Shown here piece by piece: positions 9,431 through 18,996 of a stretch of 64,000 bases of DNA. Below the pieces are notes generated by a model that was given only the letters and a program-made list of their open reading frames with translations, had not been told where the DNA came from and ran no database searches. Position 1 is the first letter of the stretch. Each line of letters starts with the position of its first letter. Both the position numbers and the translations under genes were made by a program. The DNA comes from Geomicrobium halophilum (GTDB lineage: Bacteria > Bacillota > Bacilli > Bacillales > Marinococcaceae), in assembly GCF_014207655.1 (NCBI RefSeq), contig NZ_JACHHJ010000001.1, forward strand, positions 1,240,001-1,304,000. The letters are read 5' to 3'.

Positions 9431-10195
9431 TTATCTGGTCATTTCTTTTTGAAACGCCTGCTTCAATCGAAATAATGCCTTTGAATGGATCTGCGAAATT
9501 CTTGACGTCGACAACCGTAACGCAGCTCCAATCTCTGTAAGGGTAAGTTCTTCATAATAGAAAAGGGAGAGGACGAGCCTTTCCTGCTCTGAAAGTTTGG
9601 TTATGAGTGTTTGCAATTGTTTATGTACTGCTTTTTTTTCAGCTTCTTCATGCGGGAGAGGCGCTTGGCGGTCTTGAACTGCTGATAGAAAAGAATCTTC
9701 GTTGTCTTCGTCGTGTGGCCCTCCATCAATGGATAACAAGTGCGACATATAGCTTTCTGCAGTCGTTTTTAACACTTCTTCTACAGAGATATTGAGCTCT
9801 ATGGCCACTTCCTTCTCTGTAACATGTCTTCCTTTTTTTTGTTGGAGAACCTCGGTGGTTTCCTCAATTTTCTTTGCTTTTTCTCGTATAGAACGGGGAA
9901 GCCAATCTTCCTTACGAAGCCCATCGATGATCGCCCCGCGAACACGAAAAGAAGCGTACGTATCAAATTTGAGTTCACGTTTATGTTCAAACTTGTGCAG
10001 TGCATCGAATAAGCCTATCATGCCATGAGATCGAAGTTCATCACGATCAACGGTGCGGGGCAGTGCCGTACTGATCCGCTGAACATGATAGTCAACGAGC
10101 GGCGAATAGGCAGCCATTAACTCTTCTTCTGCATATCGATCCCTATGATTGATCCAACGTGCCCAAATTTCCCCCAAGCTTGCTGTTGTCCGCAT
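9431..10195 (-). CDS. sigD: Flagellar/motility RNA polymerase sigma factor SigD
   Basis: Sigma-28 (FliA/WhiG) type sigma factor that directs late flagellar and autolysin genes. Region 2 spans about residues 30-110, with DELRSHGMIGLFDALHKFEH and TYASFRVRGAIIDGLRKEDW; region 3 follows with LPRSIREKAKKIEE; region 4 near 200-250 carries the helix-turn-helix LTLTEIGAALRLSTSRISQI. The start has AAAGGAGGAGACG. At 254 residues it is full length. Position is unusual: it follows flhA after only about 210 bp, whereas B. subtilis has seven flh and che genes between them; swrB is absent downstream. Confidence 0.97.
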   Translation of the reverse strand: MRTTASLGEIWARWINHRDRYAEEELMAAYSPLVDYHVQRISTALPRTVDRDELRSHGMIGLFDALHKFEHKRELKFDTYASFRVRGAIIDGLRKEDWLPRSIREKAKKIEETTEVLQQKKGRHVTEKEVAIELNISVEEVLKTTAESYMSHLLSIDGGPHDEDNEDSFLSAVQDRQAPLPHEEAEKKAVHKQLQTLITKLSEQERLVLSLFYYEELTLTEIGAALRLSTSRISQIHSKALFRLKQAFQKEMTR

Positions 10196-10220
10196 ATCGT
10201 CTCCTCCTTTACATGCCCCA

Positions 10221-10433
10221 TTAATAAAATTTGTACCTTTTTAAATGGTACAGACAATTAACGACTAAACCTCTCAAACATTGAATCGTCCGTCCTTTGT
10301 TTCCTCTGTTTTGGCTTTTATTAGGATGTTTGCTCCTATCAAGAAAAGTGAAAGCTTCCTTCTTAGGTGTAATTTTTAGTGCTTGTTTCATCGTTTTGCT
10401 CGGGCTCTCAAGGTAAGTCCACCACACCAACAC
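10221..10433 (-). pseudogene. Scar at the flhA-sigD junction, possible flhF and cheD remnant
   Basis: An open frame continues out of the flhA 3' end in another frame. It reads through YLESPSKTMKQALKI near its start, which resembles the FlhF N-terminus (V-K-x-Y-x-A-x-T-M-x-x-A-L), then KKEAFTFLDRS where FlhF has a D-A-V-I-L-N-S type stretch. It ends in NRGNKGRTIQ, resembling the GGN-x-GR motif near the CheD C-terminus. An ATG at 10391 would give 56 residues but has no good ribosome binding site. The FlhF-CheD reading is my inference from short matches; the missing genes are not inferred but seen. Confidence 0.35.
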
Positions 10434-12444
10434 TTTGAACTTCAACGTTTGGTTCCAGCTCATTGTAAGATAACACCGGAACTTGTGGAAAATAGCGTTC
10501 AATGAGCTGACGGATATGCATACGAACCGCGGGTGAACAAAGAATCACCGGCGTTTGCCCCATATCTGACAATTTTTCGGCTTCTTTGCTGATGGTTTCA
10601 ACCATTTTCTCGGCTTCATCGGGCGCAAGCGATAAGAACGTACCGTGCTCTGATTGGTGTAAGGCATCCGCAATTTTTTTCTCAGCAGCCCCTCCGAGTG
10701 TTACAACATACAACGGTCCGCTTGGCGGAACGACCGCTTTTGTAATCTGCCTTGATAGATTTTGTCTTGCGTATTCAGCGATTAACCTCGGATCTTTGAA
10801 CATCGGTCCATAATCGGCTAACGTTTCAAAGATAGCTGGCAAATTACGAATGGACACTTTTTCTTTCAAGAGCGTTGCTAAAACTTTTTGAATATCCCCA
10901 AGGGTGAGCGGGTTCGGAGTCACCTCTTCCACTAGTGTCGGGTGAGTTTCTTTCAAATGATCGACAAGCTGTTTGGTTTCTTCTCGACCTAATAGTTCAT
11001 GGGCATACCGTTTCATCGTTTCCGTTAAATGTGTAGAGACGACCGAAGGCGGATCAACAACGGTATAGCCCGAAATTTCCGCGCGGTCTTTTTGATCTTC
11101 ATCCACCCACAATGCTGGCAGGCCGAACGCGGGTTCAACTGTCTCAATGCCAGTAATGGTTTCATCATCGACCCCCGGGCTCATCGCCATATAGTGATCA
11201 AGAAGTAACTCCCCTCGGCTTACTTCATTCCCGCGCAATTTAATTACATACTCATTTGGCTGCAGCTGGATGTTATCACGGATACGAACCACGGGTACGA
11301 TGACCCCGAATTCCAGTGCCAATTGTCTACGAATCATGACGACCCGGTCGAGCAAGTCCCCTCCCTGATTCGTATCAGCAATCGGAATTAATCCGTAGCC
11401 AAATTCGAATTCGATTGGATCAATCGTTAGTAACTGCGTGACATTTTCCGGGGTTGTAACGTCTTCATTGGCTGCTTCCTCCTCTTGTAAAGATTCCTTT
11501 GGTACAGAAGAATCTTTTTGACGAGTGAGTACCCAGCCGGAAGTCCCTAGAACTGCTGAAATCGGAAATGTGACTAGATTTGATATTGGCGTAAACACCC
11601 CGAGTAAAATAAGCGCACCAGCAGCAATATAGAGCAACTTTGGATAGGCAAACACCTGCTCACTAATATCATAACCGAGCGACCCATTCGAGGCGGCACG
11701 CGTCACAACGATCCCCGTTGCCGTCGCAATCAAGAGGGCAGGAATCTGTGTCACAAGCCCATCTCCGACGGTTAGTAATGTGTACGTACCCGCTGCTTCT
11801 GTAAAACTAAGATCGTGTAGAAGCATCCCAATTATGAAACCGAAAATGATATTCACGAGGACGATGATAATCCCGGCGATCGCATCCCCCTTCACAAATT
11901 TGCTGGCCCCGTCCATTGAGCCGTAAAAATCCGCTTCCTGTTCAATTTTTTCTCGGCGTGTTTTTGCTTCCTGTTCAGTAATTAACCCAGCATTTAAGTC
12001 AGCATCGATGCTCATCTGCTTTCCTGGCATTGCATCGAGGGTAAAGCGCGCACCTACTTCGGATACACGTTCAGCCCCCTTGACGATCACGATAAACTGG
12101 ATCACAACAAGGATAAGAAAAATCACAAAACCAACAAGTGCATTCGATCCAACGACAAATGAACCAAACGTATCAATGACACTCCCTGCCTCTGCCCGAC
12201 TTAAAATGGCACGGGTCGTTGATACGCTTAAGCCGACGCGGAACAATGTCGCTAGCAAAAGGACAGTAGGAAAAATTGAAAAATCAAGCGGTTCTCTCAT
12301 GTTCATAGCGACAAGAATAATGAGCAAAGAAAGAGAGATATTCACCATGATCAGGACATCAATCATGGGTGATGGCAACGGGAAAATGAGCATGGCCACT
12401 ATTAAAATGACGCCTATTAAAATGACTAAATCACGTGCTCGCAT
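10408..12444 (-). CDS. flhA: Flagellar type III export apparatus protein FlhA
   Basis: Large membrane subunit of the flagellar export gate; its cytoplasmic ring docks chaperone-substrate complexes. The N-terminal third has about eight membrane segments, with the conserved loop near residues 150-200 (FTLDAMPGKQMSIDADLNAG). The soluble C-terminal domain spans about 330-677. The ATG at 12444 (MRARDLVILIGV) follows AGAGGAGATG and matches B. subtilis better than the upstream start at 12465. The protein has 677 residues. Its 3' end overlaps the junction scar, and flhF and flhG, normally next, are absent. Confidence 0.96.
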   Translation of the reverse strand: MRARDLVILIGVILIVAMLIFPLPSPMIDVLIMVNISLSLLIILVAMNMREPLDFSIFPTVLLLATLFRVGLSVSTTRAILSRAEAGSVIDTFGSFVVGSNALVGFVIFLILVVIQFIVIVKGAERVSEVGARFTLDAMPGKQMSIDADLNAGLITEQEAKTRREKIEQEADFYGSMDGASKFVKGDAIAGIIIVLVNIIFGFIIGMLLHDLSFTEAAGTYTLLTVGDGLVTQIPALLIATATGIVVTRAASNGSLGYDISEQVFAYPKLLYIAAGALILLGVFTPISNLVTFPISAVLGTSGWVLTRQKDSSVPKESLQEEEAANEDVTTPENVTQLLTIDPIEFEFGYGLIPIADTNQGGDLLDRVVMIRRQLALEFGVIVPVVRIRDNIQLQPNEYVIKLRGNEVSRGELLLDHYMAMSPGVDDETITGIETVEPAFGLPALWVDEDQKDRAEISGYTVVDPPSVVSTHLTETMKRYAHELLGREETKQLVDHLKETHPTLVEEVTPNPLTLGDIQKVLATLLKEKVSIRNLPAIFETLADYGPMFKDPRLIAEYARQNLSRQITKAVVPPSGPLYVVTLGGAAEKKIADALHQSEHGTFLSLAPDEAEKMVETISKEAEKLSDMGQTPVILCSPAVRMHIRQLIERYFPQVPVLSYNELEPNVEVQSVGVVDLP

Positions 12445-12465
12445 TTTACATCTCCTCTTCTTCAA

Positions 12466-15972: not shown

Positions 15973-16335
15973 TTAACATAGTACTTTATTTACAGCATCT
16001 AGCACCCGATCAGCCTGAAAGGGCTTTACGACAAAGTCTTTTGCTCCTGCCTGGATCGCTTCGATGACCATCGCTTGCTGTCCCATCGCTGAACACATAA
16101 TTACTTTCGCCCGGGCGTCGTAAGCCTGAATTTCCTTTAACGCCTGGATGCCGTCCATTTCCGGCATTGTAATGTCCATCGTCACAAATGCCGGCTTTAA
16201 TTCTTTGTATTTTTCAACCGCCTCTTTTCCATTTTCTGCTTCACCCACGATTACAAAATCATTTTTATCGAGGATATCTTTAATCATCATACGCATAAAA
16301 GACGCATCATCTACGATTAGTACACTACTTGCCAT
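15973..16335 (-). CDS. cheY: Chemotaxis response regulator CheY
   Basis: Single receiver-domain protein whose phosphorylated form acts on the flagellar switch (FliM/FliY). Receiver residues seen: acidic pair DD in VLIVDDASFMR near 9-10, phospho-acceptor Asp in FVTMDITMPEMDG near 54, Thr/Ser in IMCSAMGQQ near 83 and Lys in FVVKPF near 105. The ATG at 16335 gives 120 residues, the same as B. subtilis CheY; an ATG at 16347 is too close to the ribosome binding site. No kinase gene cheA lies in the operon, so phosphorylation would need one elsewhere. Confidence 0.96.
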   Translation of the reverse strand: MASSVLIVDDASFMRMMIKDILDKNDFVIVGEAENGKEAVEKYKELKPAFVTMDITMPEMDGIQALKEIQAYDARAKVIMCSAMGQQAMVIEAIQAGAKDFVVKPFQADRVLDAVNKVLC

Positions 16336-16359
16336 TACGGTTTTCATCCTTTACCCATG

Positions 16360-17547
16360 TTATAAATGTTGCAATCGTTGTTCACGACTTATTATATCGG
16401 TCACCCTTACCCCGAAGTTTTCATCAATAACCACAACCTCTCCTTTAGCGACAAGACGCTGGTTCACGAGAATATCCACCGGGTCCCCAGCCAATTTATC
16501 CAGTTCGATAATCGAGCCTTGTGTGAATTGAAGAATATCCTTAATGGAACGTCTTGTCCGTCCCAACTCCACTGTTACTTCAAGTGGAATATCCATCAGC
16601 ATACTTAAGTTACGGGATTGATTTACACTAAGGGGAACATCGTCAAAATCATTAAAAGTGACCGGCTGGATATCACGGTCTACTACTTGCTCATTGGTCC
16701 TTGAATTTTTCACACCCTCCTCTAGCGGCGCATTTGACGATGGTTGAGGATTTGGGGAAGGTTCAGGGGGTTCTGTGTTCCCCAATTCCTCAGCTAAATT
16801 TTCTTCACCTTTTGGATTCGGGGCCATTAATTGGGCGACCATCTCTTTTGCGAACCCTAAACTTGCTAACTGCATAATGGAGGAGTCGATTTGATCTCCG
16901 ATTTGTAAACGAAAGGATGTTTTTACGAGTGTATCCTCTTGCGGTATATACTCCGTTCCTGAACCTTCATCTATATTGAGCATATCGACAGCAGGTGGTG
17001 AAATATCGACACGTCGATTAAAAATAGTTGACAAAGATGTCGAGGAGCTCCCCATCATTTGGTTCATCGCTTCCTGAACCGCACTAATGTACATATCGGT
17101 AAGTTCAGAAGGGGGTGAAGTCCCATCTCCACCGAGCATGAAATCTGCAATGACTCGTGCATCTTCTTCTTTAATGACAAGCAGGTTCGTACCCTTGAAT
17201 CCGCTCATGTATTTTACATGAACCGCCACATGTTGTTTCGGGAGCTCCTCATACAACAGATCGGATTGAATGGCCTGTACCACGGGTGTTGTGATTGACA
17301 CCTTTTGATTTAATAGCTTTGATAGCACCGTCGCTGCGCTTCCAAACGAAATATTTCCAATTTCACCAATCGTATCCTGTTCAATCGTCGTTAAGTACTG
17401 GCTGACATCTAACCCAGCTTTCGTTGTGGGAGGCGGATAGCCATCTTCTTCTACGTTATTGCTCGTTACTTTTTGCTCATCATTTCCATCTTCTAAACCT
17501 TCAAGCAATCCGTTTATTTCCTCCTGGGAGAGAGAATCGTCATTCAT
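16360..17547 (-). CDS. fliY: Flagellar motor switch phosphatase FliY (FliN domain)
   Basis: Switch component with an N-terminal peptide for CheY-P (SLSQEEINGLLEGL near residues 5-18), a CheC-like phosphatase middle domain (about 50-240, with IGEIGNISFGSAATVLSKLL and VQEAMNQMMGSSSTSLS, both carrying the E-x-x-N pair), a variable Pro-rich linker and a C-terminal FliN/SpoA domain (about 310-390, VELGRTRRSIKDILQFTQGS). The length, 395 residues, is normal. As cheC is missing from the operon, FliY is the only CheY-P phosphatase coded here. Confidence 0.96.
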   Translation of the reverse strand: MNDDSLSQEEINGLLEGLEDGNDEQKVTSNNVEEDGYPPPTTKAGLDVSQYLTTIEQDTIGEIGNISFGSAATVLSKLLNQKVSITTPVVQAIQSDLLYEELPKQHVAVHVKYMSGFKGTNLLVIKEEDARVIADFMLGGDGTSPPSELTDMYISAVQEAMNQMMGSSSTSLSTIFNRRVDISPPAVDMLNIDEGSGTEYIPQEDTLVKTSFRLQIGDQIDSSIMQLASLGFAKEMVAQLMAPNPKGEENLAEELGNTEPPEPSPNPQPSSNAPLEEGVKNSRTNEQVVDRDIQPVTFNDFDDVPLSVNQSRNLSMLMDIPLEVTVELGRTRRSIKDILQFTQGSIIELDKLAGDPVDILVNQRLVAKGEVVVIDENFGVRVTDIISREQRLQHL

Positions 17548-18536
17548 CTGTCTTCTTCTGCCTCCTTTATTTTCTCAATGACTTGTACAGCCAACCGCTT
17601 CTTTTTCTTTCCGGCTTGAACAAAGTACTTCGGTTCCCCGCCGACATAAGCCACAAACGGATCATTGACTGGCTGGGAAAGCTCGATAACATCATCCTGA
17701 CGCAAATGGAGAAGTTCCTCTACGCTGATTTGTGAATGACCAAGCAATGCCTGGAACGTCAAATTTGCCTGACGAACAGAACTTTCCAATCGCTGTTCTT
17801 CACCTTCATGGCGAGATTTATTCGTCTTCTCCATCCAGTAATGCCTAGATAGTTTTGGCAAAATCTCTTCAAATACAACATAAGGTAAGCAAACGTTAAT
17901 CATCCCTGTCGTTTCACCGATCGTTGCGGAAAGGGAGATAACCACAACTGTTTCATTTGGTGCTACCATTTGCATAAATTGTGGATTGATTTCCAAATGT
18001 TCCAAGACTGGCTCAATTTCAATCACTGAGCTCCATGCCTGTTCAAAACAATCAAGTATGTATTGGGTCATTTGTGAGAGTATTCTCGTTTCAATTTCAG
18101 TCAAATTTTCAATCTTGTTATAGCTTAAACCCTCTCCCCCTAAGATACGGTCAAGCATGGAGTAGCCGATTTGAGGATTTATTTCAATCAATAATCGTCC
18201 CGTAAGCGGCTTAGCGTCAAACACATTCAGCAACGTCATTTTGGGAATTGAACGGATAAATTCTTCATAAGACAATTGTTCAACAGAAGCTACTGATATT
18301 TGTACGAACGTACGTAATCGGGCAGCGAGTGCTGTCGTCAACAGACGTGCAAAGTTCTCATGGATACGTGTCAAGGAACGTATTTGATCTTTAGAGAAAC
18401 GAACGGCCCGCCTAAAGTCATAAGTCATAATTTTATTTTCATCGATTTCTTTGCGTAATTCGTTTGCATCCATTTCACCCGTCGATATCGCTGACAGCAG
18501 GGAGTCAATTTCTCCTTGTGAAAGTACATCAGTCAT
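17544..18536 (-). CDS. fliM: Flagellar motor switch protein FliM
   Basis: C-ring protein that binds CheY-P and sets rotation direction. It has the N-terminal LSQGEIDSLLSAI CheY-binding peptide at residues 5-17, the middle CheC-like domain (about 45-230) and the C-terminal SpoA domain (about 250-325, ISVEELLHLRQDDVIELSQP). At 330 residues it is the usual length. Its start overlaps nothing upstream: fliL, normally next to it, is absent, and a broken frame fills the space to flgG. Confidence 0.97.
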   Translation of the reverse strand: MTDVLSQGEIDSLLSAISTGEMDANELRKEIDENKIMTYDFRRAVRFSKDQIRSLTRIHENFARLLTTALAARLRTFVQISVASVEQLSYEEFIRSIPKMTLLNVFDAKPLTGRLLIEINPQIGYSMLDRILGGEGLSYNKIENLTEIETRILSQMTQYILDCFEQAWSSVIEIEPVLEHLEINPQFMQMVAPNETVVVISLSATIGETTGMINVCLPYVVFEEILPKLSRHYWMEKTNKSRHEGEEQRLESSVRQANLTFQALLGHSQISVEELLHLRQDDVIELSQPVNDPFVAYVGGEPKYFVQAGKKKKRLAVQVIEKIKEAEEDR

Positions 18537-18608
18537 GATTTCACCTCAAAGCTCAACCTCATCAGCATGCAAGCAAGAGGTTATGAATATCCAGGAACAA
18601 GTCTTGTT

Positions 18609-18876
18609 CTAATGTGAGCAACCCTCCGGACCTTCTAAATCCTTAGCAACATCTCTTACAAGCGATGAATAACCACATTTTTGATACGTCGTCAGCATCC
18701 TTTAGATACATCATTAATTCTTCAGTGTCCCACGAACGTATAATGACTTCACCAATACTTAGAACTTCTAAGGACTTCGGATGCAGCTCAACTAATTAAA
18801 AGTTTTCGGTTTCTATCAGTCGGCTACCATCGTTGGCAGCTACAAGGGGATGACCTGACTGTCCTTTATAGAGTGT
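18609..18876 (-). pseudogene. Broken open frame between flgG and fliM (possible swrD relic)
   Basis: On the minus strand from 18876 a frame runs about 78 codons with a single in-frame TAA at 18796. A shift of frame near GACGAC (about 18688) gives a further open stretch ending at 18609. Segments PKSLEVLSIGEVIIRSW and TEELMMYLKDADD resemble the second half of SwrD/FlbD (P-D-T..I-x-L-x-N-G-x..V-x-E-S-x-E-E-V), which sits exactly here in B. subtilis. The match is weak and the first half does not align well, so another origin is possible. No FliL-like membrane helix is seen. Confidence 0.35.
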
Positions 18877-18983
18877 GTTCAAAAAGAAGGACGACAAGAG
18901 CCGAGTAGGTCGAGAAGACGTAGCTTCGAGCACCCTGCTCGCACCACGAAAGCTATTTTCCCGGACTTTTTGAACAACTTCTT
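18875..18983 (-). repeat. Intergenic repeat, deletion derivative C (109 bp)
   Basis: Both ends match copy A: GTGTTCAAAAAG on the left and TTTCCCGGACTTTTTGAACA on the right. The left 80 bp (GAGCCGAGTAGGTCGAGAA, TAGCTTCGAGCA, CTGCT, GCACCACGAAA) are nearly identical to A, then the sequence jumps from CACCACGAAA straight to GCTAT and the right end. The missing middle in A is flanked by ACGAAA direct repeats. It lies 14 bp after the flgG stop codon, in the same orientation as A. Confidence 0.88.
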
Positions 18984-18996
18984 ATAAGAGACAAGA

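Follow-up and report, generated by a model that had tools for sequence, protein, structure and literature searches.

A 212-bp scar, a truncated CheA and the probable stepwise loss of chemotaxis sensing in Geomicrobium halophilum

In Bacillus, the seven genes flhF, flhG, cheB, cheA, cheW, cheC and cheD normally lie between flhA and sigD, as in Bacillus sp. PS06, which carries all of them there in 6.9 kb. In Geomicrobium halophilum all seven are gone from this site and the two flanking genes are separated by 212 bp that hold no gene, both points having been correctly stated in the initial annotation. That annotation attributed the gap to one deletion running from the start of flhF to the end of cheD, raising the question of how these genes were lost and what remains of chemotaxis in this organism. 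The window analyzed is a stretch of 64,000 nucleotides (G000:C1:1240001-1304000) of a genome assembled in 11 contigs with a completeness of 100%. Its relevant features, together with one gene located outside it, are collected in Table 1.

Table 1. Coordinates of the features discussed, given as positions in the window unless a contig is named
Feature	Position	Strand	Evidence and remarks
sigD (motility sigma factor), intact	9431..10195	-	NCBIfam FliA/WhiG 362 bits, above cut-off; Pfam sigma regions 2-4
212-bp scar, gene-free	10196..10407	-	gene order compared across 20 genomes of the family and named outgroups
degenerate cheD 3' end, roughly the final 40 codons with the stop	10216..10330	-	Smith-Waterman and background windows
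flhA, intact	10408..12465	-	PF00771 915 bits; 0/267 invariant sites changed
cheY, intact, conserved	15973..16347	-	PF00072; 0/62 invariant sites changed; active-site residues kept
fliY (motor switch and CheY-P phosphatase)	16360..17547	-	both phosphatase motifs kept (EIGNISFG, EAMNQMMG)
fliM	17544..18536	-	CheY-binding peptide at the N-terminus (LSQGEIDSLL) retained
fliL pseudogene, interrupted by stops and spread over more than one frame	18537..18996	-	tblastn and DNA score
cheA, truncated, relocated	G000:C1:319149-320741 = L009:15149-16741		530 codons; downstream of the rplU-rpmA region

Relics in the flhA-sigD interval and gene order in relatives

The position of the scar is occupied by cheC-cheD in sister genera and by flhF-flhG-cheB-(cheA-cheW)-cheC-cheD in outgroups. 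Of the two relics proposed to lie in it, that of the CheD C-terminus proved real: the segment aligned to cheD of a sister genus (G003) with a Smith-Waterman score of 67, compared to a maximum of 41 in 300 dinucleotide shuffles, and ranked first among 3,850 real background windows. The resemblance to the FlhF N-terminus did not rise above chance (p=0.69 in shuffles; positions 157 and 1303 in the ranking of the 3,850 windows), and the 93-aa frame at 10221-10502 matched no Pfam or NCBIfam family in a profile search. For the 77 bp that separate the cheD relic from the stop of flhA (10331-10407), the starts of flhF and cheC were considered as possible origins and both were rejected on chance-level scores.

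Gene order in relatives indicated that the interval was emptied in steps. Genera g3, g5 and g6 carry flhF-flhG-cheB-cheC-cheD between flhA and sigD, an arrangement that the interval lengths of g8, g9 and g12 also fit, and g11 shows the same order with a short CheB (L121:4286-4915, flhA oriented +), which at 209 aa seems to lack the receiver domain. In g7 the interval holds flhF, a piece of flhG, cheB and cheD, with FlhG cut to a 144-aa frame (L108:4075-4509, flhA oriented +) and no cheC in the cluster. Only cheB-cheC-cheD is found in g2, and the sister genera g4 and g10 show flhA-cheC-cheD-sigD, flhF and cheB being missing genome-wide and flhG from the site. In the FlhA tree the genus of G. 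halophilum (g1), represented by one genome, is sister to g4 plus g10, with g7 outside (support 100/98 for the three genera together and 94/92 for g4 plus g10). The simplest history is that flhF, flhG and cheB were lost before these three genera split, and that the G. halophilum branch then lost cheC-cheD, cheR, cheW together with the P5 domain of CheA, all chemoreceptors and fliL. Because the sister genera retain cheC-cheD and already lack flhF, flhG and cheB, the last event at flhA-sigD removed only cheC-cheD, and a single seven-gene deletion is excluded by the gene order of the relatives.

Remnants were also observed at other sites. The distance between ndk and aroC, where cheR resides in G009, is 249 bp in G. 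halophilum and 1,022 bp in that relative. Alignment scores of 74 and 88, versus shuffle maxima of 47 and 43, revealed a cheR relic there, although the alignment covers not only the 3' end of cheR but also the sequence preceding aroC, whose conservation explains part of the score. Fragments of fliL, a gene whose frame is present in g4, g7 and g10, were recognized by tblastn with E-values down to 6.7e-6 and by a DNA score of 64 against a shuffle maximum of 41.

The chemotaxis inventory and a relocated cheA

A genome-wide search returned no match to the chemoreceptor signalling domain (MCPsignal, PF00015), which was found in 28/28 family relatives and in the expected controls. There was likewise no match anywhere in the genome to CheW/CheV (PF01584), or to CheB, CheR or CheD. 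FlhF gave nothing above its cut-off, FlhG only MinD-like matches and CheC only a 30% match inside FliY, Ndk and AroC being recovered as positive controls in the joint search for these two. The adaptation enzymes CheR, CheB, CheD and CheC are thus all missing, against a near-universal presence of MCP, CheR, CheD and CheW across the family. By contrast, flagellum genes were kept: flagellin, FlgK, FlgL, FliD and MotA are present and intact, as are frames that resemble FlgM and FlgN by eye. A gene for a LuxR-type regulator separates flgL from fliD (L126:6197-6946), a region in which neither FliW nor CsrA was seen among frames of at least 70 aa. Elsewhere in the family, G012 and G023 show no FlhA match, yet have matches to CheA, CheW, CheR and receptors, chemotaxis genes there outliving the flagellar export gate.

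An intact cluster moved to another site was considered and rejected, the only member found elsewhere in the genome being a truncated cheA about 930 kb away. The expectation that the loss would hit both flagellar positioning and signalling genes accordingly holds genome-wide, apart from this persisting cheA. Nor did cheA leave flhA-sigD in this species, as had been assumed: cheA-cheW lie outside that interval in 12/12 family genomes examined at the cheA locus (in ten of them near rplU-rpmA, and elsewhere in genus g6), and in the remaining family genomes with FlhF above cut-off cheA and flhF are far apart or on separate contigs. Since cheA-cheW sit outside flhA-sigD across the family, the move predates the species. 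Directly upstream of the G. halophilum cheA are two tandem, similar small frames, lipoprotein-like and by eye superoxide-dismutase-like (L009:13430-15035).

The frame of cheA is open throughout and encodes the Hpt, P2, dimerisation and ATPase domains (P1-P4). The Hpt domain (PF01627, E=1.3e-17) retains its phosphorylatable-histidine motif SAHTLKG, and the dimerisation (PF02895, 1.9e-12) and ATPase domains (HATPase_c, PF02518, 4.8e-20) are both recognized, with the N, G1, F and G2 boxes intact in the alignment. No match was found in this protein to the CheW-like P5 domain (PF01584), and it ends at 'FTIQLPWTL', precisely where P4 gives way to P5, the domain that couples CheA to receptors. Downstream lies a 27-aa remnant of the CheW C-terminus, in one still-open frame and 44% identical to the sister CheW (E=6e-5). 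Its position 3' of the cut CheA suggests that one deletion took out P5 and most of cheW. A CheA-CheW fusion through a frameshift was considered unlikely, only this short remnant following CheA.

The substitution rate of CheA P1-P4 on the G. halophilum branch, relative to the sister branch, was 1.55, within the range of 1.17-2.26 spanned by ten further proteins of the flagellum or of motility, so that CheA shows no extra acceleration relative to flagellar genes. Substitutions were found at 9/124 family-invariant CheA sites, versus 0-4 in intact relatives, and at 4/102 sites that are invariant in a broader panel of 28 full-length CheAs; the family count is equalled only by a frame-broken copy in G025 (L018, G025:C56), where flhA is also frame-broken, these being pseudogenes or assembly errors. 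On the motor side, all features of a CheY-controlled switch, namely CheY, the CheY-binding peptide of FliM and the phosphatase motifs of FliY, are present.

P5-less CheA and its partners in other lineages

Truncation of CheA at this boundary was not restricted to G. halophilum. In G051, from another family of the same order, the cluster reads flhA-flhF-flhG-cheA-sigD and the 529-aa CheA ends at the same P4/P5 boundary; this genome contains no MCP and no CheW-domain match. In Thalassobacillus devorans (NZ_FXEH01000006.1), flhF-flhG-cheA are followed by a ylxL-like frame and sigD, and the 432-aa CheA, lacking P2 and P5, is cut at the same boundary. This species was read at the flagellar cluster, the whole-genome absence of receptors and CheW being shown for G051. 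Both keep CheY. A FlhA tree uniting G. halophilum, G051 and Thalassobacillus in one clade was rejected (p-AU 6.5e-40), so the three P5 losses belong to unrelated lineages. Alignment sites M121 and N496 are changed in all three P5-less CheAs, which would suggest sites that couple the kinase to receptors, but the overlap of changed sites between G051 and Thalassobacillus (5 sites against about 3 expected) was not significant.

Two further genomes lack CheA and have no receptors. G048 has no CheY in the operon, and both its FliY motif (ELFSVSLG) and its FliM peptide (LSPATVDALL) are altered, while G053 encodes a CheY-like protein that is 30% identical and a FliY of 183 aa from which the phosphatase part is missing. 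Across the five lineages, the partners are thus kept where CheA is kept and decay where CheA is gone, a correlation that provides the main support for a function of the truncated kinase.

Function or decay of the remnant, and known systems

Loss of the chemotaxis sensory system is itself well shown; that the CheA remnant functions is what we infer from comparing sequences. Sensing was probably lost stepwise with the flagellum genes kept, leaving a sensor-less CheA-CheY-motor circuit, and the 212-bp gap would be one of several scars from the loss of the whole system. The remaining circuit would comprise CheA P1-P4, CheY, FliM and FliY, the truncated CheA autophosphorylating without receptors and feeding CheY at a fixed rate, and FliY stripping the phosphate from CheY-P. 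CheA without P5 would be expected, from the general biochemistry of CheA, to retain basal activity; a search of the open-access literature found no paper on the basal activity of P5-less CheA. In B. subtilis, CheY-P raises runs and deletion of CheY results in tumbling only (PMC340952). Because CheY-P is needed for runs under this polarity, loss of CheA or CheY would yield a tumble-only cell, and a sensor-less kinase would keep the cell swimming, if undirected. A broader proposal, for and against which the chances seem evenly balanced, is that a receptor-independent CheA core (P1-P4) with CheY, FliM and FliY might be a functional end point that the loss of chemotaxis has reached repeatedly in bacilli, kept for CheY-P-dependent runs.

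A tenable but rather doubtful alternative is plain decay, according to which chemotaxis was abandoned, cheA is a young pseudogene, and CheY, FliY and FliM linger owing to the short time elapsed or to a structural role in motor and operon. The deletion that cut cheA may be recent, given the still-readable cheW remnant that it left, and hence the open frame of cheA is not necessarily a sign of selection. The number of altered invariant sites, matched only by the frame-broken G025 copy, points the same way, as does the decay of fliL, whose loss together with that of flhF could mean that the flagellum itself is on its way out. However, 530 codons of cheA have stayed open while cheD, cheR and fliL are in shreds, CheA has not accelerated beyond the flagellar genes, two other lineages hold a CheA with the same boundary cut inside the flagellar operon, and partner motifs degrade where CheA is absent. 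A single large deletion fusing the start of flhF to the end of cheD could draw on the cheD relic and on 9 bases (GCAAAACGA) that match the start of an flhF gene, but is highly improbable in view of that match being at chance level, of the sister genera that lack flhF, flhG and cheB and retain cheC-cheD, and of cheA-cheW lying elsewhere in the family. That the missing genes sit in unassembled sequence is scarcely credible despite the 11 contigs, given the full completeness, the joint absence of many independent gene families and the degraded relics found at four sites.

What makes the wider picture interesting is the stepwise loss of sensing together with the recurrence of a P5-less CheA. CheA and its control by chemoreceptors are treated as inseparable, and P5 as a universal feature: among 13,673 CheA sequences surveyed, 100% were reported to carry the CheW domain, which the survey recommends, together with the ATPase domain, for recognising CheA (PMC10782961). 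If true, a P5-less CheA core would break this rule, and such proteins would tend to escape surveys that find CheA by its CheW domain. Independent losses of P5, CheW and receptors that spare CheY and its phosphatase would amount to natural experiments on a receptor-free kinase and on why flagella persist without chemotaxis, and the contrast with CheA-less lineages, where FliY and FliM motifs decay, would lead to testable predictions set by motor polarity. A search of the open-access literature for flagellated bacilli lacking chemotaxis returned nothing relevant, which is no proof of novelty.

Compared with the surveyed family (PMC10782961), the G. halophilum CheA shares the Hpt, P2, dimerisation and ATPase domains and lacks P5. 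With chemotaxis and the fla/che operon of the B. subtilis type, G. halophilum has in common the flhB-flhA ... sigD order, CheY, FliM, FliY, SigD and a CheA homologous throughout P1-P4; it differs by lacking flhF, flhG, cheB, cheW, cheC, cheD, cheR, CheV and receptors, and by a CheA that is devoid of P5 and located outside the operon. G051 and Thalassobacillus devorans resemble it in the CheA cut at P4/P5, in the absence of cheB, cheW, cheC and cheD from the cluster and in the retention of CheY; unlike G. halophilum, they retain flhF-flhG and carry cheA inside the flagellar operon, and the Thalassobacillus CheA also lacks P2. Aquifex aeolicus, a flagellated bacterium in which chemotaxis genes are not known, similarly has flagellum genes and no known receptors, whereas G. 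halophilum retains CheY and the core of CheA. Within the same order, G048 and G053 represent more fully stripped cases than G. halophilum.
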